Part shown: one piece after another, positions 1 to 17,678 of the stretch
How the letters are laid out: each line of letters begins with the position of its first letter
Position numbering within the stretch: position 1 is the stretch's first letter
Assembly (NCBI RefSeq): GCF_001548115.1
Contig: NZ_AP014821.1
Location: forward strand, 3,971,262 to 4,035,261
DNA length: 64,000 bases
Direction: 5' to 3'
Source of the DNA: Geminocystis sp. NIES-3709
Lineage (GTDB): Bacteria > Cyanobacteriota > Cyanobacteriia > Cyanobacteriales > Cyanobacteriaceae
Notes under the pieces: model-generated
Seen by the model: only the letters and a program-made list of their open reading frames with translations
Told to the model about the DNA's origin: nothing
Database searches by the model: none
Program-made: the position numbers and the translations under genes

Positions 1-1302
1 TGCAGAATCTTCCCATTTTTCTTGTCTCTCACACATCAAGGCAACTCTTTCCCAATCTTCCAATTGACGATAACAATTTTCTGCTTCTTGCCATGCTTCT
101 ATTTTTTCATAACAAAAAGCAGATTTTTCTTGGGGGTTAACTTTTTGCCAATTTTGTGCCGCTTCTAACCATTTTTCTTGTCTTTCACACATCAACGCCA
201 CATTTACCCATTGTTGTAAATCTCGCCAACAATCTTCTGCTTTTTCCCAGTTTCTTGCCAATTCGTAATCGAGAGAAGCCTTCGATAAGTCTCCTAGACG
301 AAACCAGATGTCTGCTGATTCTTGCCATTTGGATTGTTTTCGACAAAGGATAGCTACTTTTTGCCAATCTTGAAGATGACGAAAACAAACTTCTGCTTCT
401 TCCCATGCGTCTATTTTTTCATAACACCATCCAGCTTGAGAAAATTGCCGTAATTTTTCCCATGCCTTTCCAGCTTGAGAAAACTGTTTTAATTCCTGCC
501 ATAATTTAGCTGAAGATTCATAATCTCCTTTTTCAAAACAAGATAACGCCACCATATCCCAATTTTCCAATTCCCGCCAAAGATTTTCTGCTAACTGCCA
601 TAATTCTCCTTGACAATAACATTTAGCGGCAGACTCTTTCTTGTCTATCTTCAACCATGCCCAAGCGGCTTTTTCCCATTGTTTTTGTTGTTGATAGGTA
701 ATAGCCAGTTTTTCCCAGTTTTCTAATTTTAACCAACAAGACTCTGTTTTTAACCAAATTTGACCTTTTTCATAGCATAATCCAGCTTTTTTGGTTTCTT
801 TTGCCATTTCCCAAGCAAAACCGGCTTTTTCCCATTGTTTCAATTTTTGCCAAATTTCTGCCGCTTCTTGCCATTTATGTTGAGATTCACAACAGGAAGC
901 TACATTCGGTAAATAATTTAGTTTACGCCAACAGGCTTCTGCTTTTTGCCAACACATCCCCCGTTGATAACATTGGGCAGCTTGGGAAAGTTGAGAGATT
1001 TTGAGATAACATTGGGCGGCTTTTTGCCATTGTTGTAATTTTTGCCAAATTTTGGCAGACTCTTGCCATTTTTCCTGTGCTTGACAACACAAGGCAATTT
1101 TTTCCCATTGGTTTAATTTTCGCCAACAATTTTCTGCTTTTTCCCACTGAGATATTTTTTCATAACAAATACCGGCTTTTTCCCATTTATCAATTTTTTC
1201 CCATTCTTTAGCGGCTTTTTCCCATTGGTTTTCTTCTTCTCTAATTAAAGCGGTTTTTTCCCATGCTTTTAGTTTTTCCCACATCAAGGCACAACGGGAT
1301 AA
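1..1302 (-). repeat. Array of 33 complete 13-residue (39-bp) coding repeats
   Basis: Residues 793-1226 of the minus-strand protein split into 33 full units of exactly 13 residues plus five residues of a 34th, with no insertion or deletion. The unit is roughly W-[EQ]-K-A-x-x-C-[WY]-x-K-L-x-x, and Trp occupies position 1 in 23 of 33 units. Four flavours recur in order: xxKAxxCYEKIxx, WxKAExCWRKLxx, WxKxALxCxxQxK and WQExAxIWxKLxx. This gives a super-repeat of 52 residues, or 65 when an extra unit is present. I infer an alpha-solenoid, each unit one short helix plus a turn. The array continues beyond the window. Confidence 0.9.
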
Positions 1303-3678
1303 GTCTCCTTTTTGACGATAAATTTTCTCGGCTTTAGAATAACATTTTTGGGCTTCTAAGGAATTATTTTGTTTTTGATATTCATCTCCTGCTTTTTCCC
1401 ATTCTTGGTTGAGTTTTAGACATTGTAAATAGTTATCATTATCTTCTGCCTGTTGATAACAAATACCCGCTAAATAATAAGAGTTATTTTGTTGAAAATA
1501 TCTACCTTTTTCTTGCCATTGTAAAGGAGTTAAGTTTCCCCATTTTTTTAACCATAAGTTATTATCTATCTCTTGCCAACAGTTAATGGCTTTTTCCCAA
1601 TTTTCTAATATATTCCATAAATCTCCTGCTTTTCCCCAGTCACCATCACTTTGTGCAATGTAAGGTTGAATTAATTTAGCTTGTTTATAGTTTTTCGTTT
1701 GCCAATAACATTCATAAGCCTGTTTCCATGCTCCATTATTATGATAGGATTGTACGATAGGGATTATATTATCAATAGGAGAAAAGGAGAAAAAGTTTTC
1801 TAAATCTTCAAAAGTACCTTTACCTAAATAATCTCTCAAAAAGGGGTATGTTTGTTCAAGGTTAAAAGTGGTTTCATAACAATAAATTTTGTTTTTCACA
1901 CTACCAAGACAAACATATAAATATTTTCTCAATAGATTATGGGCAATATCTTGATATTTTATATGATAAAAATAGCTGAAAAAATTCCAAAGGATGATTT
2001 CATTAAATTTTAAACCTTCTATTTCTTGAAGAGTAAGAATGCGACTATTGATGATTTCTTGATTATTTTGAAAATGATTTAATAATTTTTCTTTTTCTTG
2101 ACTGTTGGTAACAACTATACATTTATCCATCCCAAAGTTTTTACTAATACTTAAAATTTTTGATTCGGGAGTATTAATCCACAAACAGTTACTATTTTGT
2201 TGAAGAAAATGGTTTGTTTTTACTATTTCCTGATTATCTTGTTTTTTCCACAAATCATTATTTAAAACTCCTCGATTAAAGTTAGCTAAATTTTCGTTAC
2301 AAATGAGATTTGTAATTAGTTTTCCTTGATTAATTTTTCCTTCATTATTAGGGTAAACTAATTGATTAATTTTTCTTTTCCAATCTTCGATACTATAACT
2401 AATGTTAACTTGATCATAAAGTGATAGAGTTCGATCGAAAGTAAAACAACAGTTATTATTTAAGTTAGTTTTTTGATCTTTTTTTAGAAAACGAATTAAT
2501 AATTTTAGGGATAAATCATTAAATTTATGGATATTATCACAGTAAAGCTGTTCAGAAAATCCATTAAATTGAGGAGAAAGATTTGATAAAATAGACGTAA
2601 CTAAATCAGTATCATCCCAATAATTATTATCAACTAACCATTGTTGATATTTTAAAGCTAATTGATAAATTTTTGATGATTTAATATCATGAGGTAAAAA
2701 ACTATATTTTTGAATTTGCTTTTCATAATTTTCTAAAGATATTAAATGATTATCTTCTTGAGGATAATTATCATTACCTTTAATTAAATAATAAATTTCT
2801 TGCCATAAATACCATGACTCAACATCTTCTATATTATACTTTGCTAAAAATTTTTCTTTAAATTTATGATAGTTAACTTCTTTACTTCTAATAAATTTAT
2901 TGGTGTTTAATAAATTATTCTTTCTACTAAATTGAATACAGAAATGGATGAAATCATCAATAATTAAATTATCTTTTACTTCTCCTTTTAATAAAGATTG
3001 AGATAAAAATTTTGTTTGATATTTATTACTTAAATTATCAGTAAGATAAAGAATTTTTTGTTGAGGATTTTTAACACTTTCTTGAATAGCCTTAATTAAA
3101 GATACTGTTGTTTTTCCACTATTATGTATTCCATCTATTAATAATGGTAAAGGTTGATGAATATTATTAATTTCTTCTACAGACAATAAAATTTTGGGGT
3201 AATTCTCATGAATATGACTAAAACTATCTAAAGAATAATATAAAAATTCATCTAGTTGATTAACTAAATCTTCTTCACTTATTTTTAGGTTTTCTTTGGT
3301 TTTAAAACAATTAATTACTTCATTATTTATAAATTCATTCTCTGATTTAATATTTATGTCAATATCAATAATCTTAATAGATAGATTATCTTTAAAAACG
3401 ATAACTTTTTTAAGTTTACTTTTATCAAAAATATTTAAAATTTTAATAATATTTTGTTGATTATGAAGATAATAAGTTGCTAATATTTCTAATTTATAGC
3501 CAAAATTAATTCTATAAATTACTTTTTCATTTACTCTTTTTTCTATATCTGATAGTAAAGAATTATGATTAACAATACTCTCAAGATTTGATAAAAATAT
3601 TGTTTGGTTATTTTGACTAAGTAAATTAATTTTTTTGCGTAAATTACTGCTGATACTAAGACAATATTTATGATTCAT
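1..3678 (-). CDS. UvrD/TRANK1-like degenerate helicase fused to 13-residue repeats (C-terminus outside window)
   Basis: An open minus-strand frame runs from ATG at 3678 to the window edge: 1226 codons with no stop. Residues 1-175 are unrecognised. A Walker A motif (G183-IHNS-G188-K189-T190) is followed by a UvrD-like WDDTDLV stretch (354-360). Motif V is recognisable as IEGLKF (553-558, usual KGLEF) and motif VI as LYVCLGSV (587-594, usual LYVALTRA). In superfamily 1 helicases motif II is DExxD; here residues 381-384 read D-N-I-H, and the motif VI arginine is replaced by G-S. The ATP-binding lysine is kept but Walker B and the arginine finger are lost, so I infer nucleotide binding without normal helicase turnover. 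From residue 793 onward the chain consists of 13-residue repeats. The layout (SF1 core plus helical repeats) recalls eukaryotic TRANK1 and related bacterial proteins. Function unknown; the true length cannot be known from this window. Confidence 0.8.
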   Translation of the reverse strand, partial: MNHKYCLSISSNLRKKINLLSQNNQTIFLSNLESIVNHNSLLSDIEKRVNEKVIYRINFGYKLEILATYYLHNQQNIIKILNIFDKSKLKKVIVFKDNLSIKIIDIDINIKSENEFINNEVINCFKTKENLKISEEDLVNQLDEFLYYSLDSFSHIHENYPKILLSVEEINNIHQPLPLLIDGIHNSGKTTVSLIKAIQESVKNPQQKILYLTDNLSNKYQTKFLSQSLLKGEVKDNLIIDDFIHFCIQFSRKNNLLNTNKFIRSKEVNYHKFKEKFLAKYNIEDVESWYLWQEIYYLIKGNDNYPQEDNHLISLENYEKQIQKYSFLPHDIKSSKIYQLALKYQQWLVDNNYWDDTDLVTSILSNLSPQFNGFSEQLYCDNIHKFNDLSLKLLIRFLKKDQKTNLNNNCCFTFDRTLSLYDQVNISYSIEDWKRKINQLVYPNNEGKINQGKLITNLICNENLANFNRGVLNNDLWKKQDNQEIVKTNHFLQQNSNCLWINTPESKILSISKNFGMDKCIVVTNSQEKEKLLNHFQNNQEIINSRILTLQEIEGLKFNEIILWNFFSYFYHIKYQDIAHNLLRKYLYVCLGSVKNKIYCYETTFNLEQTYPFLRDYLGKGTFEDLENFFSFSPIDNIIPIVQSYHNNGAWKQAYECYWQTKNYKQAKLIQPYIAQSDGDWGKAGDLWNILENWEKAINCWQEIDNNLWLKKWGNLTPLQWQEKGRYFQQNNSYYLAGICYQQAEDNDNYLQCLKLNQEWEKAGDEYQKQNNSLEAQKCYSKAEKIYRQKGDLSRCALMWEKLKAWEKTALIREEENQWEKAAKEWEKIDKWEKAGICYEKISQWEKAENCWRKLNQWEKIALCCQAQEKWQESAKIWQKLQQWQKAAQCYLKISQLSQAAQCYQRGMCWQKAEACWRKLNYLPNVASCCESQHKWQEAAEIWQKLKQWEKAGFAWEMAKETKKAGLCYEKGQIWLKTESCWLKLENWEKLAITYQQQKQWEKAAWAWLKIDKKESAAKCYCQGELWQLAENLWRELENWDMVALSCFEKGDYESSAKLWQELKQFSQAGKAWEKLRQFSQAGWCYEKIDAWEEAEVCFRHLQDWQKVAILCRKQSKWQESADIWFRLGDLSKASLDYELARNWEKAEDCWRDLQQWVNVALMCERQEKWLEAAQNWQKVNPQEKSAFCYEKIEAWQEAENCYRQLEDWERVALMCERQEKWEDSA

Positions 3679-5741: not shown

Positions 5742-8700
5742 ATGGACACTCAATCTAGCCAATATACTCTTTCCCCCATTTTCAACAATGAAGCTATTTC
5801 TTCGGACTCAGCAGAATTCTTAACTCCTATTCAGTCCCTAATTCAAGATCAACTTTTAAATTGGTTTAGCAAAGAAGATTACTTAATCTCACTAGCAATT
5901 CCTTTCAGTGCTAATCTCTCTACAACAACATGGACAGAAAATGCTCAAACACTTCAGCAATCTATCCTCAATGGTAGTTATAATATTCGTCTTGAAATTC
6001 GTAGCAGTAGTGAATTAGAAGGAGCATTGGGGGCTTATAGTGCTACGGGTACCACAGGACAGCGTACTATTTACTTAAACAACGATTGGCTACAAACAGC
6101 ATCAATTGAAGAAATCCAAGCCGTTTTATTAGAAGAATTAGGTCACGATTTTGATAACTTTATCAATAATGGTGCTGATTCCCAAGGGGATGAAGGAGAA
6201 ATTTTCGGCAATCTGGTTTTAAATACGGACGCAAATACATCAGGCTTATTACAACAAAATGATCACAACATAGTGACTATTGATGGTCAACAGGTGGCGA
6301 TCGAAGCAGCATTTCCCACCAATATTGGTGTTGCCCAAACCTTCATCATGCCTTTCAAGGAATCGGATGTTCGCACATCCCTATATGCCATTAATACGGC
6401 GGTGGGAACAACTCTGAAAACCATTATTTCCACAGCCATTACCAGTAACGGCACCATCATTGTTTATGACCATTGGGAAGATGGTTATGAGGCAGACATC
6501 AACAATCCAATCCAAAGTACAACTCAGGTTTGGGGAGATGGTGATTCCAGCAACGGTCAAGCTCCAGGGGCCGCCGATGATATTCTGCGGGCAGGGCAGG
6601 TAATTGTTTTAAACAATGATGTTGTTCTTTCTAGTGTCGGTAGTCTAACGGCCAATGCAGGGAAACCCTACTGGGATGGACGAGACAAAATTGGAGCAAC
6701 CAAGGCTCTAACCGTAACCAAAGCAGGCTGGGCTCTTAGCCCCGGTACCGTACTGGCGGGGGCTGTCAACGTTTTTGATATAGAAAATTCGGGGAGTACC
6801 TACACAATTCCTATTGGTCAGAATACCATAACCAATATTGCGAATCCAAACGATACAGCAAATCGCTTATTTGAATATACGTCTCTTCATATTGTGGCTA
6901 GTGCTAACAATACCCGGGTCAAAATAGATAAAGACGGTAATGGCACTGTTGACCTAACCGTAACCCTCAATCAGGGAGACACCTATCTAGTCAGTGGTGG
7001 CGTATTGCAAGGGGCAACCGTGACGGCGGAGGATGCTCTAGGAACCACTACTAAAAAGCCAATTATGGTTTATTCCATTGCAGGGGATGTGGGGTCTGCC
7101 TACGAAAACCGTTGGTTGGCCATCTCGCCCAAGGAACAGTGGAGTAATAGCTATTTTGCACCAGTTAGTACAACTCTGGCTGCTGACCCAACCCACGTCT
7201 TTTTATATAATCCTAGTACCACGAGTTCCATTCGGGTTTATTACGATACTCAAACCACTATAGGCAGTTTCATTGATATTGCGGCTAATAGCACGAACTA
7301 TGTGCCAATGGGTAGTTCGGCGGCTCATTTCTATACCAAACCTGCGACGGTGGGCGCCCAAGCTCCGGTCTTTTTTGCCGTTAGCACCATTGACTCCGAT
7401 GGAACCAACAATGCAACCCGTGACTGGAGTTATAACCTCATTCCCGAGACCTACCTAACCACTCGTTTTGCTGTTGCTTGGGCTCCAGGTAATAGCAATG
7501 CTGATCCACTAACAGCTATTAATGGTAGTCCTGTTTGGGTAACGGCTCCCAGCGCAACGACCCTTTATATTGATCTTGACGGCAATGGATGGCTCAATTC
7601 TTCGTCAGTTGATGGTACTGGTCTTAATCCTGATTACACCAAGAGCAATAGCCGTAACCTTATTGTCCCCATTTCAAAATTACAGTCCTATCGCATTTTC
7701 GACACTTTAGACAACAATCAGAGTGGCATCAATGTTTTTACTCTTGACGGGACGTTAATTACGGCGGCCTGGGGGGAAGACCCAAGTATTGCAGGGCCTG
7801 GCAACCCATTTCTGGATATGGGAACGACGGTTATTCCTTATCCTGATTATGTTCTTAATAAAACTTCTCAGGAAGCCGCCAAAGTCCTAGCTCCCATAAA
7901 TAATGAAGACGGATTGGTTCAATTAAACGAGCAAATCCAATACACGATTACAGTAACAAACCGAGCGGTAATTGAGTTATTAAACACCAATATTACGGAT
8001 GAGTTTACGCCGTCGGATAGTGCCGTCTATGTTCCGAATAGTGCCACATTAACCATTTACCGCCCAGATGGTTCTATCTATTTACAAAAAGCTGATCTAG
8101 ACAATGAGACGGGGGGATTATTTCCCTTTGGTGATTGGAAAGACGTAGGGGGTAATATCGGGAACCAAGACGGGATTTTGGACGGCTACACTTTAGTGGA
8201 TTCTGACCCCAATACCCCTGGGGTTCAGGGTTTGCCGAGGGGCTACCAAGCAGTTTATACCTATCGGGCAACGGTTCGCAATGATGTCAACAAAGCCTTA
8301 GCGGATGCAGATTTGACGGTTACGAACTCTGTCACCCTAAAAGGCGATCAGACTGATCCCAAGAAAAAAGATGAAGAAACAGTAATCTCTGTCCCGAATG
8401 TGGACGGTCTAGTGGAATTTACCAGCACTTCAAATGGCACTGCAACCACAGGCTATCAGGAGGGGGGTACAATTTTCATTCGGGTTACGGACAATGATAT
8501 TAATACCTACCGTGATTTAAAAACGGGTAGTGATACTACCCCCGATGTTGCCGATATGTTCACGGTTATCGTTACTAATACTACAACGGGCGAACAGGAA
8601 ACCGTTACCCTCACGGAAACAGGGGTTGGCACAGGAGTTTTTGTTGGTCAAGTAGCTACATCCATTAATAGTTCTGATAATGGTAATAATACCAATACCC

Positions 8701-11700
8701 TCTATATGGTAGGAGGTGATGGGCTAAAGGTTGAGTATATTGATCCAATCTTTGGTGGGGTATTTGATAATCCTCTTTCCCCAGGTATTCCCAATGGGGA
8801 TGACAATGACATCACTACAGGTAATGCTAATACTGCCAATGCAACGGTTTCGGTACCAACCCAGAATAAGGTTCTGTATTTATCTGATGATGGCAACAGT
8901 GGAGATACAACAGGGGATTTAGATCGGATCAGCCCAGTCCAAGTGACTCCTCAAGATACCAACACTCAAACCACAACGTCTATTACTCCTTCTGTGCCTG
9001 GAACTGGTGGGGGAGTAGGTACTTACCTCGATAATTTCTCCACAGCAGCCTATAACAATTCCAATGGAACAGAAACTTGGTCAACTTCTTGGACAGAGTC
9101 TGGCACCAACTCCGACACAAATGCAACATCAGGTATTATTCAGATCAATACGTCAGCACCTGCAGGATTGGTTTTTGAGCGAATAGGATCTACTAACCCT
9201 CTGAATGCTGATGTTCAACGCTCCTTAAACTTGAGTGCGGCTGATACATCACAAGCTATTACTTTGAGTTTCACAGTTACGTCTGTTGATAGTTTAGATG
9301 GTACAGGAGAGAATGTTACCTTAAAAATCTCAACAAACGGAGGTTCTAGTTTTAATGCTATCACTGGAGGAACTTTTACAAAAACCTCGGGCAGTGGCAC
9401 AACAATCACTCACGCTAATGGTGTATTTACTGGGGACGCTGATGGTGCGGGAACTTATACAGTTGACATCAAAAACCTAATTGCTAGTGCAACTGATAAA
9501 AACAACATTATTATTCAGTTTGATGGTACAAACCTAAGCCGAACAAATGCTAACGACCCCCTTTTCGCAGTTGATACTTTCCAAGTTTCTTTTACTAAAA
9601 CGGGAACCCCCGCAACCCCCGCTGTACCTGCTACCTTCACCCAAGCCATCCCCATGGCGACGGATTTTGTCCTGCCTGCAGGAACAAATACCAGCGTCAC
9701 TACTTATATCACCCACACCAGTGGAGTTTTTGTCAACGGTTCCTACAACATCACTGCGAACCTCAAGGAAAGTGGCACCTCTTGGGGAACAAATACCACC
9801 GCCACCTATACAGCGATTAATGCAACAACTGGTACATTAACTTGGAGTATTTCTTCGGGTAGTGGTGTAACCCTTGATAAAGGCAATACAGTCAGCTTGG
9901 AGATTACCAGTACCTCTGGTGTTCCTAGCTTCCAGATTGATTACGATTCCAACACTAAACCCTCGCAAATTAACTTCCCCACCAGCACTGTTATCAAAAT
10001 CGTTGATGTAGATGGTATTGACCTCAACAGTGATGGCGACATTACCGATGCCAGTGAAGGCGATAACGGCAATGGTACGCAACTAATCGGCTTCTTTGAT
10101 AGTGGCTTTACCAATGATCTTAATAACAATAACAACGGCAACCTAATCACCGTAGCCAATGCAGGGCAAACCGTTTATGTGCGGATTAAAGTAAAAGATC
10201 CCTTCGGCGATTACGACATCACCAAGCTCGATCTGACCATTGATGCCCCTGGTGGTACTTTTGGGGATATTGGGGTCGGCACTCCTCTCACCCTAACCAA
10301 TACCTATGTTGTTGACACCAACGACAACACTCCCGCAGGCCCGACCGATCCCTATAAAATCTATGAGTATGTTTGGAATACCGTTTTAAATACGGGCAAC
10401 TATACCATTAACGTCAAAGCCCATGAAGGTTACGAGGGGACAGTATTTGATACTGCTTCTACCACTTTCCGTGTGGACGCCACAGACACAGGAACTCCTT
10501 CTGTTACTCAATTTATTACAGCCCTCAATGGTGCAGATGCGGGTTTAACCTATGCGGTTAATGCTAATGCCTTTTTGCGAATCACTGACTTAGATGAAAA
10601 TACCAATGGTGGTAGCCAACAAACAATTACAGCAGTTGTTAACGGTATTACCTTTACTCTGACAGAAACGGGGAACAACACAGGAGTTTTTGAAGTCCAA
10701 CTGTCCCCTAATTTTAGCAATTTAACGGCTGGAACGGTACTGTCAGCTAACTATGTTGACAGCAATGATCCAACGGATGTCAGTAGCGATACCATCTATG
10801 TTCCTTCGCCTAATCTGCCCCCATCCCTCGATCTCGACACCACCAGCACCAGTACCGTTAACAATACGGCGGTCTTCAATGAGGGTGATTCGGCGGTTTC
10901 CTTCGTCAAAGATGCAACCACAACCCTAAAACCTGTTGCAGATGATGCCAATACCATTGCTAGTCTCACGATCAGCATCCCTACCACCCAAATTACGACT
11001 AATGGTAACGGAGCTTCGGAACAACTGGTCATTACTGGTGCGACTCAAGGAGGAACGATCGCCCTTAACTTTACCAATACCACTAGCCAATCCCTCACTA
11101 GCGTTATCCTGGGCGGGGTTACTTATACCGTAAGTAGTATCGTCACGGGGGGCAACCAAGTCCTAACCTTCTCGGTTCCAGGTGGTTCTAGCACCAGTAT
11201 TGCCAATGCCGAAGCTCTACTCGAAGCCCTCAAGTATCAAAATATTAGTCCTAACCCTACTGGCGTTGATCCAAATAACCGCGATCGAGTCTTTACCCTA
11301 GTTGTTAATGATGGAGCGTTCAACAGTAATCAAGCAACCTTTAGCGTTGATGTAAATGCCATTGACTTCCCTCCTGTCATTGACTTAGACAACACCGTTG
11401 CGACGGGAACGGGAACCCTAGATAACTCAGCTACTTTTACCGAAAATGGTTCTGCGGTTTACTTTGCCAAAGATGCAAACGTTTCTGGCTCTAACAACAG
11501 TGGCACAAACCTCAGTGATGTTGATAGCGATAACCTGACTAAGCTCACGATCAGTATTGACAACACCACTTTACAAACGGGCGATCAAGTCAGGATCGGT
11601 ACGACAGACATTAATTCCATTGGAAGTGGCACTGTAACGATCGGACTAAAAACCTTTGCCTATACCGTTGCTGATGTTGGTAATACTCGTACTTATACCT

Positions 11701-14700
11701 TTAGCAATACTGGCACAAAAGCAGAGTATGAAGCCCTACTCGATCAACTGAATTTTAACAGCACTTCAGAGAATCCCAGTGGTTCCCGTGGTTTTGCGGT
11801 GACAGTAACAGATGATAGTACAACGGCTCAGACCTCAAACCCTGCTAATTTTACGGTAAATATAGTTCCCGTAAATGACCCACCAACATTAGATTTAGAC
11901 CCTTCTACCGCCTTAAGTGGAACCTTCCCGAACTATGGGACAACAGACGATAACAGTGTAGTCTTTACCGAAAATGGAGCAGCAGTTGCCTTTACTGCCA
12001 GTGGAATATCTATTGCCGATGTAGATGGAGATGCCATTGCGTCTTTGACCATCAGTTTCACCACCAGCCAAATTAGCGATGGGACGAGTGAAAAACTCCA
12101 GATAGCAGGAGGTTTAATCACAGGGGGAAATGTAGATAGCCTTGACCTGAACTTCAGTGGAGTAGGAACAGCGAATGTCTCCGTTGGTGGAGTAGATTAT
12201 CTCGTCACCCAATCCGTAGGGAGTGGAACCTCAACCCTAGTCTTTACAAAAGTCGGAGGAGGAATAGTAACGAAGGCAGAAGCAGAAATCCTTTTAGATG
12301 CTCTCCGTTACAACAACACGAGTGAAAATCCGACGGATGCCAACCGTGTCTTTAACCTACAGGTCAATGATGGAGTCTTAAACAGTAATACGGCAACTTT
12401 CACTGTTGACGTTAATCCAGTCAATGACCCACCAACATTAGATTTAGACCCTTCTACCGCCTTAAGTGGAACCTTCCCGAACTATGGGACAACAGACGAT
12501 AACAGTGTAGTCTTTACCGAAAATGGAGCAGCAGTTGCCTTTACTGCCAGTGGAATATCTATTGCCGATGTAGATGGAGATGCCATTGCGTCTTTGACCA
12601 TTAGTTTCACCACCAGCCAAATTAGCGATGGGACGAGTGAAAAACTCCAGATAGCAGGAGGTTTAATCACAGGGGGAAATGTAGATAGCCTTGACCTGAA
12701 CTTCAGTGGAGTAGGAACAGCGAATGTCTCCGTTGGTGGAGTAGATTATCTCGTCACCCAATCCGTAGGGAGTGGAACCTCAACCCTAGTCTTTACAAAA
12801 GTCGGAGGAGGAATAGTAACGAAGGCAGAAGCAGAAATCCTTTTAGATGCTCTCCGTTACAACAACACGAGTGAAAATCCGACGGATGCCAACCGTGTCT
12901 TTAACCTACAGGTCAATGATGGAGTCTTAAACAGTAATACGGCAACTTTCACTGTTGACGTTAATCCAGTCAATGACCCACCAACATTAGATTTAGACCC
13001 TTCTACCGCCTTAAGTGGAACCTTCCCGAACTATGGGACAACAGACGATAACAGTGTAGTCTTTACCGAAAATGGAGTAGCAGTTGCCTTTACTGCCAGT
13101 GGAATATCTATTGCCGATGTAGATGGAGATGCCATTGCGTCTTTGACCATTAGTTTCACCACCAGCCAAATTAGCGATGGGACGAGTGAAAAACTCCAGA
13201 TAGCAGGAGGTTTAATCACAGGGGGAAATGTAGATAGCCTTGACCTAAACTTCAGTGGAGTAGGAACAGCGAATGTCTCCGTTGGTGGAGTAGATTATCT
13301 CGTCACCCAATCCGTAGGGAGTGGAACCTCAACCCTAGTCTTTACAAAAGTCGGAGGAGGAATAGTAACGAAGGCAGAAGCAGAAATCCTTTTAGATGCT
13401 CTCCGTTACAACAACACGAGTGAAAATCCGACGGATGCCAACCGTGTCTTTAACCTACAGGTCAATGATGGAGTCTTAAACAGTAATACGGCAACTTTCA
13501 CTGTTGACGTTAATCCAGTCAATGACCCACCAACATTAGATTTAGACCCTTCTACCGCCTTAAGTGGAACCTTCCCGAACTATGGGACAACAGACGATAA
13601 CAGTGTAGTCTTTACCGAAAATGGAGCAGCAGTTGCCTTTACTGCCAGTGGAATATCTATTGCCGATGTAGATGGAGATGCCATTGCGTCTTTGACCATT
13701 AGTTTCACCACCAGCCAAATTAGCGATGGGACGAGTGAAAAACTCCAGATAGCAGGAGGTTTAATCACAGGGGGAAATGTAGATAGCCTTGACCTAAACT
13801 TCAGTGGAGTAGGAACAGCGAATGTCTCCGTTGGTGGAGTAGATTATCTCGTCACCCAATCCGTAGGGAGTGGAACCTCAACCCTAGTCTTTACAAAAGT
13901 CGGAGGAGGAATAGTAACGAAGGCAGAAGCAGAAATCCTTTTAGATGCTCTCCGTTACAACAACACGAGTGAAAATCCGACGGATGCCAACCGTGTCTTT
14001 AACCTACAGGTCAATGATGGAGTCTTAAACAGTAATACGGCAACTTTCACTGTTGACGTTAATCCAGTCAATGACCCACCAACATTAGATTTAGACCCTT
14101 CTACCGCCTTAAGTGGAACCTTCCCGAACTATGGGACAACAGACGATAACAGTGTAGTCTTTACCGAAAATGGAGCAGCAGTTGCCTTTACTGCCAGTGG
14201 AATATCTATTGCCGATGTAGATGGAGATGCCATTGCGTCTTTGACCATCAGTTTCACCACCAGCCAAATTAGCGATGGGACGAGTGAAAAACTCCAGATA
14301 GCAGGAGGTTTAATCACAGGGGGAAATGTAGATAGCCTTGACCTAAACTTCAGTGGAGTAGGAACAGCGAATGTCTCCGTTGGTGGAGTAGATTATCTCG
14401 TCACCCAATCCGTAGGGAGTGGAACCTCAACCCTAGTCTTTACAAAAGTCGGAGGAGGAATAGTAACGAAGGCAGAAGCAGAAATCCTTTTAGATGCTCT
14501 CCGTTACAACAACACGAGTGAAAATCCGACGGATGCCAACCGTGTCTTTAACCTACAGGTCAATGATGGAGTCTTAAACAGTAATACGGCAACTTTCACT
14601 GTTGACGTTAATCCAGTCAATGACCCACCAACATTAGATTTAGACCCTTCTACCGCCTTAAGTGGAACCTTCCCGAACTATGGGACAACAGACGATAACA

Positions 14701-17678
14701 GTGTAGTCTTTACCGAAAATGGAGCAGCAGTTGCCTTTACTGCCAGTGGAATATCTATTGCCGATGTAGATGGAGATGCCATTGCGTCTTTGACCATTAG
14801 TTTCACCACCAGCCAAATTAGCGATGGGACGAGTGAAAAACTCCAGATAGCAGGAGGTTTAATCACAGGGGGAAATGTAGATAGCCTTGACCTGAACTTC
14901 AGTGGAGTAGGAACAGCGAATGTCTCCGTTGGTGGAGTAGATTATCTCGTCACCCAATCCGTAGGGAGTGGAACCTCAACCCTAGTCTTTACAAAAGTCG
15001 GAGGAGGAATAGTAACGAAGGCAGAAGCAGAAATCCTTTTAGATGCTCTCCGTTACAACAACACGAGTGAAAATCCGACGGATGCCAACCGTGTCTTTAA
15101 CCTACAGGTCAATGATGGAGTCTTAAACAGTAATACGGCAACTTTCACTGTAGATGTTAATCCTGTAAATGATGCCCCTGTAAATACATTACCTCCTACT
15201 TATAGCACTAATCAAAATACCAATTTAACTTTAACTAGTTTATCTGTAGCGGATATTGATGCTAATTCGGGAACTATCTCGGTTCAATTATCTGTTACTT
15301 CTGGAAGTCTAAGTGCTGTGAGTGCTAATGGTGTAACGGTTAGTGGTTCTGGTGGCAGTTCGATCGCTTTATCGGGAACTTTAAGTGACATCAATCAATT
15401 TTTAACTAATAATTCTCCTGTTTTCACCCCTTTAACGGGTAGTACGGGAAATGTTACTTTAACGATGTTGACTAATGATAATGGTAACACAGGCTCTGGA
15501 GGTTCTCTGACCGATACGGATAACTCTGTTATTACTATTATTCCCACTAATGTTAATCCGATCGCAAATCCTGACACGAATAATGTTAATGAAGATGGGG
15601 TGTTAACGGTTAATTCGGCAAATGGACTTTTGTCTAATGATACTGACACTGATGTGGGCAATGTCTTATCTGTCACCACATTTATCGTAGCGGGAGATTC
15701 TACCGTTTATCAAGCTGATAATACAGGATTTGGTAATACAGTTACTCTGACAAAGATTGTTGGTACAACCACTGTTAATATCGGTCAATTAATTATCAAC
15801 ACTAATGGTAGTTATACCTTTACTCCTTCTTCTAATTTTAACAGTACTACATCTTTACCTACTGTAACTTATAATATTAGTGATGGTAATGGTGGAACGG
15901 CTACATCAACCTTAATTTTAAATGTTAATGCTGTTAATGATGCTCCGATCGCCCTTGGAAATCCGACCATAGCGCCTGTTTTACAAACTAATACTAATCC
16001 TGTAGGGGCGATGATTGGTACTCTGTCAGATCCTAGCTACAATGACTCGGCAGATCAAGTATTGGGGGGTAGTTCTTCGACTCCGTTGGCGGGGATTGCT
16101 ATTGTTGGTAATACGGCAAATTCGGCTGATGGTGTATGGCAATATGCGATCGCAAGTACTAGCACTGTTTGGTATAATATTCCAACCAGTTTAAGTAATA
16201 CTTCTGCTTTAGTATTAAGTCGTAATTCCAAAATTCGTTTTAAACCTAATACTGATTTTATGGGTAGTCCAGCACCTTTAGAAGTTCATCTGGCAGACAC
16301 TTCTCAATCTATTCCTCTTAGTGCCAATGCTAGTGATCTCAAAAATATTGGTACTGTAGGTGGTAGTAGTATTTGGTCTGTTGACACGATCGAAATTTCA
16401 ACGATGGTGATGGAAGTTAACACTGCTCCAGTTATTAATAATTTAGAAGGTGATACCGTTAGCATTTTACCTGGTCCTGGTGGTACAACTATCATAGATC
16501 AAGGTGCAAATGGCTCTATGTTCGATCGTCAAGGCTTGAAATCTGGGGGAATTTTTACCGTTTCTCTGGGAGGAATAGGAGTCGGTGTCGGTGATACTCT
16601 GTCCTTTGCATCAGGTGTTGATGTGTCAAGTAGTACTATTTCCATTGGTGGAGTAAATATAGGATCGATCGATCCTGTCAATAATGGACAAGATGGAAAA
16701 CCTTTAGTGATTACCCTTACCAAAGATCTTGATGACACGGAAGCAGATACTCTCATTAAGAATGTCAATTTTACAGCTAATAGTAATCCGGGACTCCGTA
16801 GTATTTCCTTTAACGTGACTGACGGAGATACCCTTGATTCCCCTAATCTTAGTTCTAACACTGCGATCGCTTTTGTTCATGTAGGGAATACTGTAAGTTA
16901 TGATTACACCATAGAAGGCGATATAAATGGTCAAGTACGCAGTGATATTCTCAAAGGTACAAATCCGGGGCAGGTAATTAATGGGTCAACTGTTAACGGA
17001 AATGACATTATTTATGGTAAAGGTGCTAATGATATTCTGTACGGCTATAAAGGAAACGATTTGATGGGTGGTGGTGATAATAATGATACCGTTGATGCTA
17101 GTGATGGCAATGATGTATTACTTGGTAGTAATGGTGATGATTTGTTAAATGGTGGCAATGATAATGATCTATTATTCGGTGGAGATGGCTCTGATAAACT
17201 AAATGGAGGAGCTGGAAATGATTACATGAGCGGTGGTTTAGGACGAGATACCCTCACTGGTGGTACAGGTGCCGATCAATCTGATTATCGTAATTATCAA
17301 GATTCTTTATTAGGGCCTAGTACATCCCAACCGATGTATGATGTTATACCTGACTTTAATGTTACTCAAGGAGATAAAATTCTTACAACTAACATAATTG
17401 GTAGTCTCATCAAATTTAATCAATATACACAATTAGTTATGAGTGGGACAACTTTGACTGCTTCTGGTATTACTAATGCTTTAAATGGTACAGCTTTTGC
17501 TCAAGATACCGCCGCATTATTAAGATTAGGTACTACTACAAAATACTTCTTAGCGATCGATAATGGTGGAAGCGGATTTGATCCAGCAAAAGATAGTATT
17601 ATTGAAATAGCTACCAGTGGAAGCACGATCGCTGTTACTAATATTGCTTTTGATCACAATATATTTCATTCTTTCTAG
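5742..17678 (+). CDS. Giant RTX/cadherin-like secreted protein (3978 aa)
   Basis: A very large extracellular or cell-surface protein, probably exported by a type I system: no N-terminal signal peptide, and glycine/aspartate-rich RTX calcium-binding nonapeptides near the C-terminus (about 3753-3846, e.g. GGAGNDYMSGG). The N-terminus has a LLEELGHDFDNFIN segment (about 129-142) seen in many cyanobacterial giant proteins; it resembles a zincin helix, but the first zinc histidine position is Glu. A DUF11-like module (NEQIQYTITVTNRA) lies near 725-850. Several cadherin/VCBS-like beta domains with DxDxD calcium motifs follow. Residues about 2045-3137 are six nearly identical 183-residue repeats; two more divergent relatives precede them (around 1690 and 1875). 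A likely role is adhesion, matrix or surface layer. The ligand is unknown. ATG at 5742 is the first start in the frame and lacks a clear ribosome site. Confidence 0.85.
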   Translation: MDTQSSQYTLSPIFNNEAISSDSAEFLTPIQSLIQDQLLNWFSKEDYLISLAIPFSANLSTTTWTENAQTLQQSILNGSYNIRLEIRSSSELEGALGAYSATGTTGQRTIYLNNDWLQTASIEEIQAVLLEELGHDFDNFINNGADSQGDEGEIFGNLVLNTDANTSGLLQQNDHNIVTIDGQQVAIEAAFPTNIGVAQTFIMPFKESDVRTSLYAINTAVGTTLKTIISTAITSNGTIIVYDHWEDGYEADINNPIQSTTQVWGDGDSSNGQAPGAADDILRAGQVIVLNNDVVLSSVGSLTANAGKPYWDGRDKIGATKALTVTKAGWALSPGTVLAGAVNVFDIENSGSTYTIPIGQNTITNIANPNDTANRLFEYTSLHIVASANNTRVKIDKDGNGTVDLTVTLNQGDTYLVSGGVLQGATVTAEDALGTTTKKPIMVYSIAGDVGSAYENRWLAISPKEQWSNSYFAPVSTTLAADPTHVFLYNPSTTSSIRVYYDTQTTIGSFIDIAANSTNYVPMGSSAAHFYTKPATVGAQAPVFFAVSTIDSDGTNNATRDWSYNLIPETYLTTRFAVAWAPGNSNADPLTAINGSPVWVTAPSATTLYIDLDGNGWLNSSSVDGTGLNPDYTKSNSRNLIVPISKLQSYRIFDTLDNNQSGINVFTLDGTLITAAWGEDPSIAGPGNPFLDMGTTVIPYPDYVLNKTSQEAAKVLAPINNEDGLVQLNEQIQYTITVTNRAVIELLNTNITDEFTPSDSAVYVPNSATLTIYRPDGSIYLQKADLDNETGGLFPFGDWKDVGGNIGNQDGILDGYTLVDSDPNTPGVQGLPRGYQAVYTYRATVRNDVNKALADADLTVTNSVTLKGDQTDPKKKDEETVISVPNVDGLVEFTSTSNGTATTGYQEGGTIFIRVTDNDINTYRDLKTGSDTTPDVADMFTVIVTNTTTGEQETVTLTETGVGTGVFVGQVATSINSSDNGNNTNTLYMVGGDGLKVEYIDPIFGGVFDNPLSPGIPNGDDNDITTGNANTANATVSVPTQNKVLYLSDDGNSGDTTGDLDRISPVQVTPQDTNTQTTTSITPSVPGTGGGVGTYLDNFSTAAYNNSNGTETWSTSWTESGTNSDTNATSGIIQINTSAPAGLVFERIGSTNPLNADVQRSLNLSAADTSQAITLSFTVTSVDSLDGTGENVTLKISTNGGSSFNAITGGTFTKTSGSGTTITHANGVFTGDADGAGTYTVDIKNLIASATDKNNIIIQFDGTNLSRTNANDPLFAVDTFQVSFTKTGTPATPAVPATFTQAIPMATDFVLPAGTNTSVTTYITHTSGVFVNGSYNITANLKESGTSWGTNTTATYTAINATTGTLTWSISSGSGVTLDKGNTVSLEITSTSGVPSFQIDYDSNTKPSQINFPTSTVIKIVDVDGIDLNSDGDITDASEGDNGNGTQLIGFFDSGFTNDLNNNNNGNLITVANAGQTVYVRIKVKDPFGDYDITKLDLTIDAPGGTFGDIGVGTPLTLTNTYVVDTNDNTPAGPTDPYKIYEYVWNTVLNTGNYTINVKAHEGYEGTVFDTASTTFRVDATDTGTPSVTQFITALNGADAGLTYAVNANAFLRITDLDENTNGGSQQTITAVVNGITFTLTETGNNTGVFEVQLSPNFSNLTAGTVLSANYVDSNDPTDVSSDTIYVPSPNLPPSLDLDTTSTSTVNNTAVFNEGDSAVSFVKDATTTLKPVADDANTIASLTISIPTTQITTNGNGASEQLVITGATQGGTIALNFTNTTSQSLTSVILGGVTYTVSSIVTGGNQVLTFSVPGGSSTSIANAEALLEALKYQNISPNPTGVDPNNRDRVFTLVVNDGAFNSNQATFSVDVNAIDFPPVIDLDNTVATGTGTLDNSATFTENGSAVYFAKDANVSGSNNSGTNLSDVDSDNLTKLTISIDNTTLQTGDQVRIGTTDINSIGSGTVTIGLKTFAYTVADVGNTRTYTFSNTGTKAEYEALLDQLNFNSTSENPSGSRGFAVTVTDDSTTAQTSNPANFTVNIVPVNDPPTLDLDPSTALSGTFPNYGTTDDNSVVFTENGAAVAFTASGISIADVDGDAIASLTISFTTSQISDGTSEKLQIAGGLITGGNVDSLDLNFSGVGTANVSVGGVDYLVTQSVGSGTSTLVFTKVGGGIVTKAEAEILLDALRYNNTSENPTDANRVFNLQVNDGVLNSNTATFTVDVNPVNDPPTLDLDPSTALSGTFPNYGTTDDNSVVFTENGAAVAFTASGISIADVDGDAIASLTISFTTSQISDGTSEKLQIAGGLITGGNVDSLDLNFSGVGTANVSVGGVDYLVTQSVGSGTSTLVFTKVGGGIVTKAEAEILLDALRYNNTSENPTDANRVFNLQVNDGVLNSNTATFTVDVNPVNDPPTLDLDPSTALSGTFPNYGTTDDNSVVFTENGVAVAFTASGISIADVDGDAIASLTISFTTSQISDGTSEKLQIAGGLITGGNVDSLDLNFSGVGTANVSVGGVDYLVTQSVGSGTSTLVFTKVGGGIVTKAEAEILLDALRYNNTSENPTDANRVFNLQVNDGVLNSNTATFTVDVNPVNDPPTLDLDPSTALSGTFPNYGTTDDNSVVFTENGAAVAFTASGISIADVDGDAIASLTISFTTSQISDGTSEKLQIAGGLITGGNVDSLDLNFSGVGTANVSVGGVDYLVTQSVGSGTSTLVFTKVGGGIVTKAEAEILLDALRYNNTSENPTDANRVFNLQVNDGVLNSNTATFTVDVNPVNDPPTLDLDPSTALSGTFPNYGTTDDNSVVFTENGAAVAFTASGISIADVDGDAIASLTISFTTSQISDGTSEKLQIAGGLITGGNVDSLDLNFSGVGTANVSVGGVDYLVTQSVGSGTSTLVFTKVGGGIVTKAEAEILLDALRYNNTSENPTDANRVFNLQVNDGVLNSNTATFTVDVNPVNDPPTLDLDPSTALSGTFPNYGTTDDNSVVFTENGAAVAFTASGISIADVDGDAIASLTISFTTSQISDGTSEKLQIAGGLITGGNVDSLDLNFSGVGTANVSVGGVDYLVTQSVGSGTSTLVFTKVGGGIVTKAEAEILLDALRYNNTSENPTDANRVFNLQVNDGVLNSNTATFTVDVNPVNDAPVNTLPPTYSTNQNTNLTLTSLSVADIDANSGTISVQLSVTSGSLSAVSANGVTVSGSGGSSIALSGTLSDINQFLTNNSPVFTPLTGSTGNVTLTMLTNDNGNTGSGGSLTDTDNSVITIIPTNVNPIANPDTNNVNEDGVLTVNSANGLLSNDTDTDVGNVLSVTTFIVAGDSTVYQADNTGFGNTVTLTKIVGTTTVNIGQLIINTNGSYTFTPSSNFNSTTSLPTVTYNISDGNGGTATSTLILNVNAVNDAPIALGNPTIAPVLQTNTNPVGAMIGTLSDPSYNDSADQVLGGSSSTPLAGIAIVGNTANSADGVWQYAIASTSTVWYNIPTSLSNTSALVLSRNSKIRFKPNTDFMGSPAPLEVHLADTSQSIPLSANASDLKNIGTVGGSSIWSVDTIEISTMVMEVNTAPVINNLEGDTVSILPGPGGTTIIDQGANGSMFDRQGLKSGGIFTVSLGGIGVGVGDTLSFASGVDVSSSTISIGGVNIGSIDPVNNGQDGKPLVITLTKDLDDTEADTLIKNVNFTANSNPGLRSISFNVTDGDTLDSPNLSSNTAIAFVHVGNTVSYDYTIEGDINGQVRSDILKGTNPGQVINGSTVNGNDIIYGKGANDILYGYKGNDLMGGGDNNDTVDASDGNDVLLGSNGDDLLNGGNDNDLLFGGDGSDKLNGGAGNDYMSGGLGRDTLTGGTGADQSDYRNYQDSLLGPSTSQPMYDVIPDFNVTQGDKILTTNIIGSLIKFNQYTQLVMSGTTLTASGITNALNGTAFAQDTAALLRLGTTTKYFLAIDNGGSGFDPAKDSIIEIATSGSTIAVTNIAFDHNIFHSF
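11874..15151 (+). repeat. Six tandem 549-bp coding repeats, nearly identical
   Basis: Units begin at 11874, 12423, 12972, 13521, 14070 and 14619, each exactly 549 bp (183 codons); the last diverges after 15151. By eye I find only three variable positions: offset 106 (C, but T in unit 3, Ala to Val), offset 179 (C in units 1 and 5, T in the others, silent) and offset 275 (G in units 1, 2 and 6, A in units 3-5, silent). Every unit starts NDPPTLDLDPSTALSGTF and carries a DVDGDA calcium-type loop. Confidence 0.95.
16998..17279 (+). repeat. RTX-type calcium-binding nonapeptide block
   Basis: Residues about 3753-3846 of the giant protein contain successive GGxGxDxxx-like nonapeptides (for example GNDVLLGSNGDDLLNGG and GGDGSDKLNGG). 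In RTX proteins these bind calcium and fold into a parallel beta-roll after type I secretion. Confidence 0.85.

Follow-up and report, generated by a model that had tools for sequence, protein, structure and literature searches.

What kind of protein carries a long run of Trp-rich repeats of only 13 residues, and from what could it have derived? The question is raised by the first bases of the window, the stretch of 64,000 nucleotides analysed here from the 4.4 Mb genome of Geminocystis sp. NIES-3709, in which a preliminary description made from the sequence alone had recognised such units. The window boundary truncates the gene, which that description could not have shown, and the complete gene was followed outside the window (Table 1). 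Its N-terminal part, absent from the earlier account, corresponds to a helicase without its catalytic motifs, and we find it more unusual than the repeat itself. In the following, clade C is that of the window gene (P0001), clade B that of its paralogue (P0002), and clade A includes the intact relatives found in genomes G119, G109, G387 and G111.

Table 1. Position of the repeat gene and its parts in the window
Feature	Window position	Strand	Residues	Remarks and basis
Repeat gene, window part	1..3678	-	1-1226	Whole gene of 1771 aa, runs past window base 1; G000:C1, L009:7625-12940
Regular array of 13-residue helical units, in-window part	1..1341	-	780-1226	34 full units of ~70
Irregular helical lead-in to the solenoid	1342..1761	-	640-779	Similar short helices plus insertions; sequence, predicted helices, conserved columns
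UvrD/GajB-like SF1 helicase core, catalytic motifs lost	1849..3186	-	~165-610	Alignment, motif table, fold match
P-loop GIHNSGKT	3109..3132	-	183-190	Retained helicase motif; alignment, motif table, conserved columns
Motif II remnant CDNIHKF (versus CDEIQDL)	2521..2541	-	380-386	Asp kept, Glu lost; motif table
RelE-like N-terminal domain	3304..3678	-	~1-125	Predicted fold; weak, window sequence itself without RelE match

The 13-residue array and its kinship

When residues 793-1226 were divided into units of 13, 33 exact units were obtained (793-1221), residues 1222-1226 being the start of a further unit cut by the window edge. Of these 33, 23 begin with Trp (position 1), identical to the figure reported before. 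In the complete gene, the run extends without indels as far as residue 1689, so that the earlier claim of at least 33 consecutive units becomes 69 when counted from residue 793. Counting from residue 780, with position-specific scores derived from the window protein, gives 70. All 84 Trp of residues 793-1689 fall into three phases, position 1 (51), position 8 (31) and position 6 (2). Lys occupies position 3 in 36 of the 69 units and position 10 in 30, Glu or Gln are found at position 2 in 29 and 18 units, respectively, and at position 9 in 27 and 16. In controls (18 protein tails, each shuffled 50 times) the longest run of units was 2. Similar arrays are present in nine complete orthologues from separate genomes, and an assembly artefact as the source of the repeats was therefore rejected.

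The array has super-periods of 52, 65 and 117 residues. Residue identity was 0.32 at lag 52, 0.265 at lag 117, 0.248 at lag 104 and 0.235 at lag 65, compared to a maximum of 0.115 in 200 shuffles over lags 1-139. Both lags of the nested 52/65-residue super-repeat proposed previously exceed the shuffles. Of the groupings tested, those by nine units (4+5; z 4.5) and by four (z 3.3) were the strongest; grouping by three or by five units alone was not enriched. The four unit types described as recurring in order mostly do so, although the string obtained by typing the units with simple rules is imperfect. Between odd and even units the difference is larger than for most random divisions of the array (as high in 1.6% of 2000), so that the helices may not all be equivalent.

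The structure of residues 1-1190 of the window protein was predicted with AlphaFold2 from seven sequences. In most units of the model, a 10-residue helix is followed by a 3-residue turn, with pLDDT values of 80-92 along the array block and 63 at its cut end; as the pTM was only 0.37, the overall shape of the model is unreliable. The same helix spacing was predicted for the intact protein of Pseudanabaena. Foldseek searches with the window model returned IFT-A proteins at the top (8bbg_A, E 9.7e-11, TM 0.13-0.14), followed at lower rank by Ctr9, LGN, other TPR proteins and clathrin, in all cases with low TM-scores (mostly 0.04-0.20 on the query). Both the model and these matches agree with the alpha-solenoid of one short helix per unit that had been suggested for the array, which remains a predicted structure.

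The additional suggestion that the unit belongs to no named family was not supported. Taken as a whole, the window protein scored 53.5 bits with Pfam TPR_2 (PF07719, cut-off 27) and 47.4 bits with Pfam Clathrin (PF00637, cut-off 29.6), with no match in a NCBIfam scan. No single stretch passed E=1 with TPR_2 in the window protein and three did in the paralogue P0002, which stays under the Clathrin cut-off; this cut-off is also exceeded by one clade A protein (L043). When a 52-residue profile of the array (A4, 16 rows) was compared with the PDB, the top entries were engineered TPRs (E 1.2e-17) and, of the natural proteins, kinesin light chain (from 7.3e-9), the single matches being insignificant and their sum over the repeats significant; two adjacent units align without gaps over 26 residues to both helices of one TPR, with the linker left out. 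IFT proteins were not at the top in this search. In searches of the PDB with the whole protein, IFT144 came first, with E 6.2e-4 for one sequence and 1.5e-11 for profile A3, in an alignment that covers residues 1339-1532 of the query with about 10 residues inserted in total.

From the AlphaFold helices, the Foldseek and Pfam results, the 52-residue profile and the IFT144 matches, we conclude that the repeat is a linker-less solenoid of TPR/IFT-A type with a strict 13-residue helix period, so it represents a variation on a known kind of solenoid, and its fold is not unknown. The possibility that the units are simply half-TPRs or a named family, raised along with the first description, is thus largely borne out in kinship, through TPR_2, but not in geometry: the period is 13, not the 34 residues of two antiparallel helices in tandem, and a half-TPR in the strict sense of 17 residues is ruled out by this value. 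Concerning the stacking of hairpins, what can be said is that short helices on 3-residue turns are predicted, with TPR and IFT-A proteins as Foldseek matches at low TM-scores and a pTM of 0.37.

Compared to the consensus TPR, in which each hairpin takes 34 residues and each helix 17 on average, two window units correspond to the two helices, but there is no linker between hairpins, and the aromatic residues at positions 1 and 8 and the super-repeat of four and five units are features of the window array. Proteins of IFT-A (IFT144/WDR19, IFT140, IFT122) are the best whole-protein matches in the PDB and the first in Foldseek; however, their solenoids are irregular, eukaryotic and come after WD40 propellers, whereas the window protein is a bacterial fusion with RelE-like and helicase parts and about 70 indel-free units. 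The likeness to clathrin heavy-chain/VPS repeats consists of the PF00637 scores of the window protein and L043, but the window gene lacks a coat-protein context. Among the titles and opening lines of abstracts of the open-access literature, no description of the 13-residue repeat or of the protein family was found.

A helicase-like core without its catalytic residues

Among the intact relatives (clade A and two Pseudanabaena loci), Pfam UvrD-helicase matched both of the proteins scanned, and GajB models matched all four scanned among the six proteins of clade A and Pseudanabaena, as well as two D-type proteins. No Pfam helicase model matched the window protein or P0002, except for ADDB_N in the latter (0.0058, under the cut-off). 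Nevertheless, the model of the window protein was matched by Foldseek to UvrD/PcrA at E ~1e-6 with TM 0.30-0.34 on the target (2is4_B, E 1.3e-6, TM 0.34), which supports a UvrD-like fold, in a core predicted partly with low confidence (pLDDT <50 in places).

The helicase motifs were tabulated for 10 clade C and 13 clade B sequences, along with nine rows of clade A, Pseudanabaena and D-type proteins. All the listed motifs are kept in the nine latter rows. None of the 23 B and C sequences lacks the P-loop GK[ST] or the first Asp of motif II, whereas the Glu of motif II is kept in one (the B sequence of G391, an exception with motif II DE), the Gln of motif III in two, and the Arg of motif IV and the TR-Arg of motif VI in none. 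The window gene has none of motif II DE, motif IV Arg and motif VI TR-Arg intact. In SF1 helicases, the motif II Glu and the arginines of motifs IV and VI have catalytic roles.

In a tree drawn with a midpoint root, B and C sequences together form one side of a branch with support 99/99, beside the intact clade A; a partial B gene (G393), a B gene with in-frame stops (G394), the C remnant of G119 and distant E-type and partial rows were left out of it, and the G386 row, whose motifs are dead, was grouped with clade B. Given this branch, a single loss of catalysis suffices to account for both clades.

The N-terminus was predicted to fold as strand-helix-helix-helix-strand-strand-strand. RelE-type Pfam models did not match the N-termini of the window protein, L043 or L063, and two D-type relatives gave matches under the Pfam cut-offs (YoeB_toxin 0.0012 in L049, HigB-like 0.0046 in L051). 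A profile of eight N-termini found a single PDB entry, 1wmi_A, at E 0.039, which we take to be an archaeal RelE. Kinship of the N-terminus of the window protein with RelE seems likely. Across pairs, dN/dS of this part ranged from 0.08 to 0.60, with weaker constraint in some (0.31 and 0.60) and a value of 0.48 in the clade A pair.

According to a report on ARMADA, ArmD of ARMADA type II, encoded in a four-gene cluster, is a predicted GajB-like helicase with a RelE-like domain, in which the Walker A change K266A abolished defence and the Walker B change D454N caused only a partial loss (PMC12458937). The order of a RelE-like domain followed by a UvrD/GajB-like core appears to be common to ArmD and the window protein, but ArmD needs its P-loop and belongs to a cluster, whereas the window gene is solitary, with its catalytic motifs lost and a solenoid of 70 helices.

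Distribution, selection and array length

The search for the repeat in other cyanobacteria with the 52-residue profile gave matches at E≤1e-6 in at least nine of the 386 genomes of the phylum: six in the family of the window genome, G111, and single weaker ones in G157 and G091. The N-terminal 660 residues matched in at least 18 of the 386 (E≤0.001). Both counts are lower bounds because at most 17 candidates per genome were scored with the profile and at most three with the N-terminal region. The two weaker matches, which are the ones outside this family, are a short broken frame (L072, G157) and L073 (G091:C3:2758379-2758528), a frame of 524 aa with a few similar 13-residue units before what by eye resembles a formylglycine-generating-enzyme domain.

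Within the family, all 15 genomes searched have at least one member. Counted by loci, all 15 have a B-type gene, including G386 and G393, in which it is cut by contig ends (assigned by eye in G393, within L062), and G394, in which it has in-frame stops. The C-type gene is found in 10 of the 15, plus a remnant in G119, and the intact A-type in three (G109, G119, G387). In the remnant (L040, ~7913-8867) the frame is interrupted by stops and no array was found, whereas G109, closely related to G119, has the gene in full. The B-type gene of G394 (L124) carries two in-frame TGA codons in a genome that is 67% complete, due either to sequencing error or to decay. A mobile origin of the window gene was rejected, as phage records gave no match and plasmids only distant UvrD-annotated matches in four records.

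By the Nei-Gojobori method, dN/dS in four B or C pairs was 0.07-0.21 for the helicase core and 0.04-0.15 for the repeats, values that are rough in three of the pairs because dS is ~0.65-1.07. In the close pair B_G119/B_G109 the core gave 0.074, compared to 0.105 in the intact A_G119/A_G109. The nine complete C-type orthologues have open frames of 1660-2163 aa.

Six of these nine (G000, G185, G391, G109, G056 and G389) have arrays of 70 units; the figure for G109 depends on accepting units 1 and 28 from the alignment (69 by script). The remaining arrays have 65 units in G388, 62 in the metagenome-assembled genome G393, and ~94 in G387 if double dips are bridged (52 otherwise); that of G386 is cut by a contig end. 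In G393, eight units may have been truly lost, or else collapsed in the short-read assembly. In the C-type gene of G387 (L116:3593-10117) the pattern of runs suggests four extra blocks of 78 residues (six units). B-type proteins have in-phase spans of 38-41 units in 10 of 12 complete rows, and of 27, with the phase broken, in G109 and G119. In clade A the in-phase spans cover 14-23 units, with further units out of phase, and in Pseudanabaena 12.

When the arrays of four species were compared, unit k paired with unit k, with diagonal identities of 0.785, 0.554 and 0.453 and off-diagonal values of 0.25-0.27. Units 42-53 constitute a triple 52-residue block whose copies are 0.76-0.96 identical in DNA within a gene (best pair 0.89-0.96) and 0.56-0.82 between species. 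This holds in each of the four species, none of which shows a net gain or loss of units. We read this block as a probable case of concerted evolution inside an array of mostly kept length, the alternative being recurrent duplication with loss.

Proposed role and its alternatives

The C gene has no neighbours conserved beyond close relatives in seven loci compared, and a conserved operon was rejected for this reason; the same holds for the B gene in 13 loci. The intact gene of Pseudanabaena follows DarT and DarG in both loci, on the same strand and 53 bases after DarG. The arrangement of DarT, DarG and the intact RelE-helicase-solenoid gene (L063:6164-11003, L064:3140-8009) is a possible three-gene defence cassette, and in L063 there are, presumably, relaxase-like and ParA-like genes nearby. 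No PADLOC model matched P0001 or P0002 at E≤1, and relatedness to a known anti-phage system, through GajB models and DarTG neighbours, was found only among the intact relatives. The link to defence comes from intact, distant relatives, at two similar loci of one genus, and would concern the ancestor.

The explanation that we favour, to which we give about even chances, is that the window protein, derived from a helicase of defence type, is a pseudo-helicase that binds a nucleotide and serves as a scaffold, with the repeats as its C-terminal solenoid of TPR/IFT-A-like type. The Trp or other aromatic residue at position 1 and the aromatic at position 8 would probably pack between neighbouring helices, so that about 80 short helices could stack into one long rod or superhelix. 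The core retains the P-loop and the leading Asp of motif II, but neither the motif II Glu nor the arginines of motifs IV and VI; it would bind a nucleotide without efficient hydrolysis, and the solenoid would offer a long surface to which proteins, or nucleic acid, could bind, with the nucleotide-bound core as its gate or anchor. A scaffold role is suggested because catalysis is lost, the solenoid is long and the nearest relatives are of this kind. The order of events may have begun with a catalytically intact RelE-helicase-solenoid ancestor of defence type, as still found beside DarTG genes in Pseudanabaena, and one catalytic loss, two steps drawn from the tree, the motifs and the neighbourhood in one genus; expansion of the solenoid and fixation in the cyanobacterial family as a nucleotide-binding scaffold would have followed.

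A more specific version is only tentatively put forward. The helicase would have lost catalysis once and kept its nucleotide pocket, while the solenoid grew from the 12-23 in-phase units of intact relatives to ~38-41 (B) and 70 (C; ~94 in one species) near-equivalent single-helix units, helix by helix and not hairpin by hairpin, with the length held at 70 in most C orthologues despite a homogenised block of 12 units; the product would be a nucleotide-gated scaffold or ruler domesticated from an anti-phage helicase. Both odd and even numbers of units were added or removed (65 in G388; five-unit steps in the super-repeat), so that none of the unit types would be confined to a single face.

A still working helicase or defence effector, in which the altered motifs are tolerated, nucleic acid is unwound or cleaved and the solenoid recognises the target, is unlikely. 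Defence genes are usually patchy in their spread, but this gene occurs throughout the whole family (15 of 15 genomes); in addition, the motif II Glu is lost in 22 of 23 sequences and the arginines of motifs IV and VI in all 23, and PADLOC finds neither the protein nor its paralogue. What speaks for activity are the GajB and UvrD matches of the intact relatives (four of four and two of two scanned), the DarTG genes adjoining the Pseudanabaena homologues and the different effects of D454N and K266A in ArmD, partial and total, respectively, which make a defence role of the P-loop alone thinkable (PMC12458937). Quite improbable, too, is a solenoid that binds nucleic acid in the manner of PPR/OPR proteins, the dead core serving as a static clamp. 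Helicase and RelE-type ancestries are both related to nucleic acids, Lys is frequent at positions 3 (36/69) and 10 (30/69) and the unit types, being fixed in order, could encode the order of a target; however, Glu and Gln dominate positions 2 and 9, which leaves the net charge undecisive, and PPR is absent from the Pfam matches and from the best 50 Foldseek matches listed, where protein scaffolds lead.

Convergence on a similar fold by a new repeat family unrelated to TPR would explain the strict 13-residue period, the Trp at position 1 and the 4+5-unit super-repeat, none of them TPR features, the presence of the repeats at E≤1e-6 in only a few genomes (at least nine of 386) and the insignificance of every TPR match taken singly. 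This is also held to be improbable, given the TPR_2 and Clathrin scores above cut-off and the gap-free 26-residue match to both consensus TPR helices, significant as a sum. Least credible, and already disfavoured, is the idea that the gene is decaying or that its repeats expanded neutrally and have no function: catalytic motifs are lost, three of nine complete orthologues deviate in array length (65, 62 and 94), the C gene of G119 is a remnant and the B gene of G394 has in-frame stops, but the nine orthologues remain open over their whole length, dN/dS is well below 1 in core and repeats of all pairs tested, and unit k still pairs with unit k across species.

On the preferred explanation, that of a pseudo-helicase scaffold, an enzyme would have been converted into a scaffold protein of giant size. 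TPR solenoids and pseudo-enzymes have each been known before, and their combination in one lineage is the point. If the explanation is true, the family would provide a clean natural series from intact to dead helicase with ~12 to 94 units, in which to study the growth of repeat arrays, the maintenance of their length and the conversion of a catalytic motor into a scaffold. For designed solenoids, the 13-residue unit may also serve as a minimal building block of natural origin, and bacterial relatives are provided for a solenoid of IFT-A type.

Elsewhere in the window, an open frame of 3978 aa (5742-17678, + strand) contains a long domain, by eye similar to cadherin/VCBS domains, in about six almost unchanged copies, with Gly-Asp-rich RTX-like repeats near the C-terminus of the frame. 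A tandem-repeat search with a longest period of 500 detected only a 27-base array at 17095-17182.
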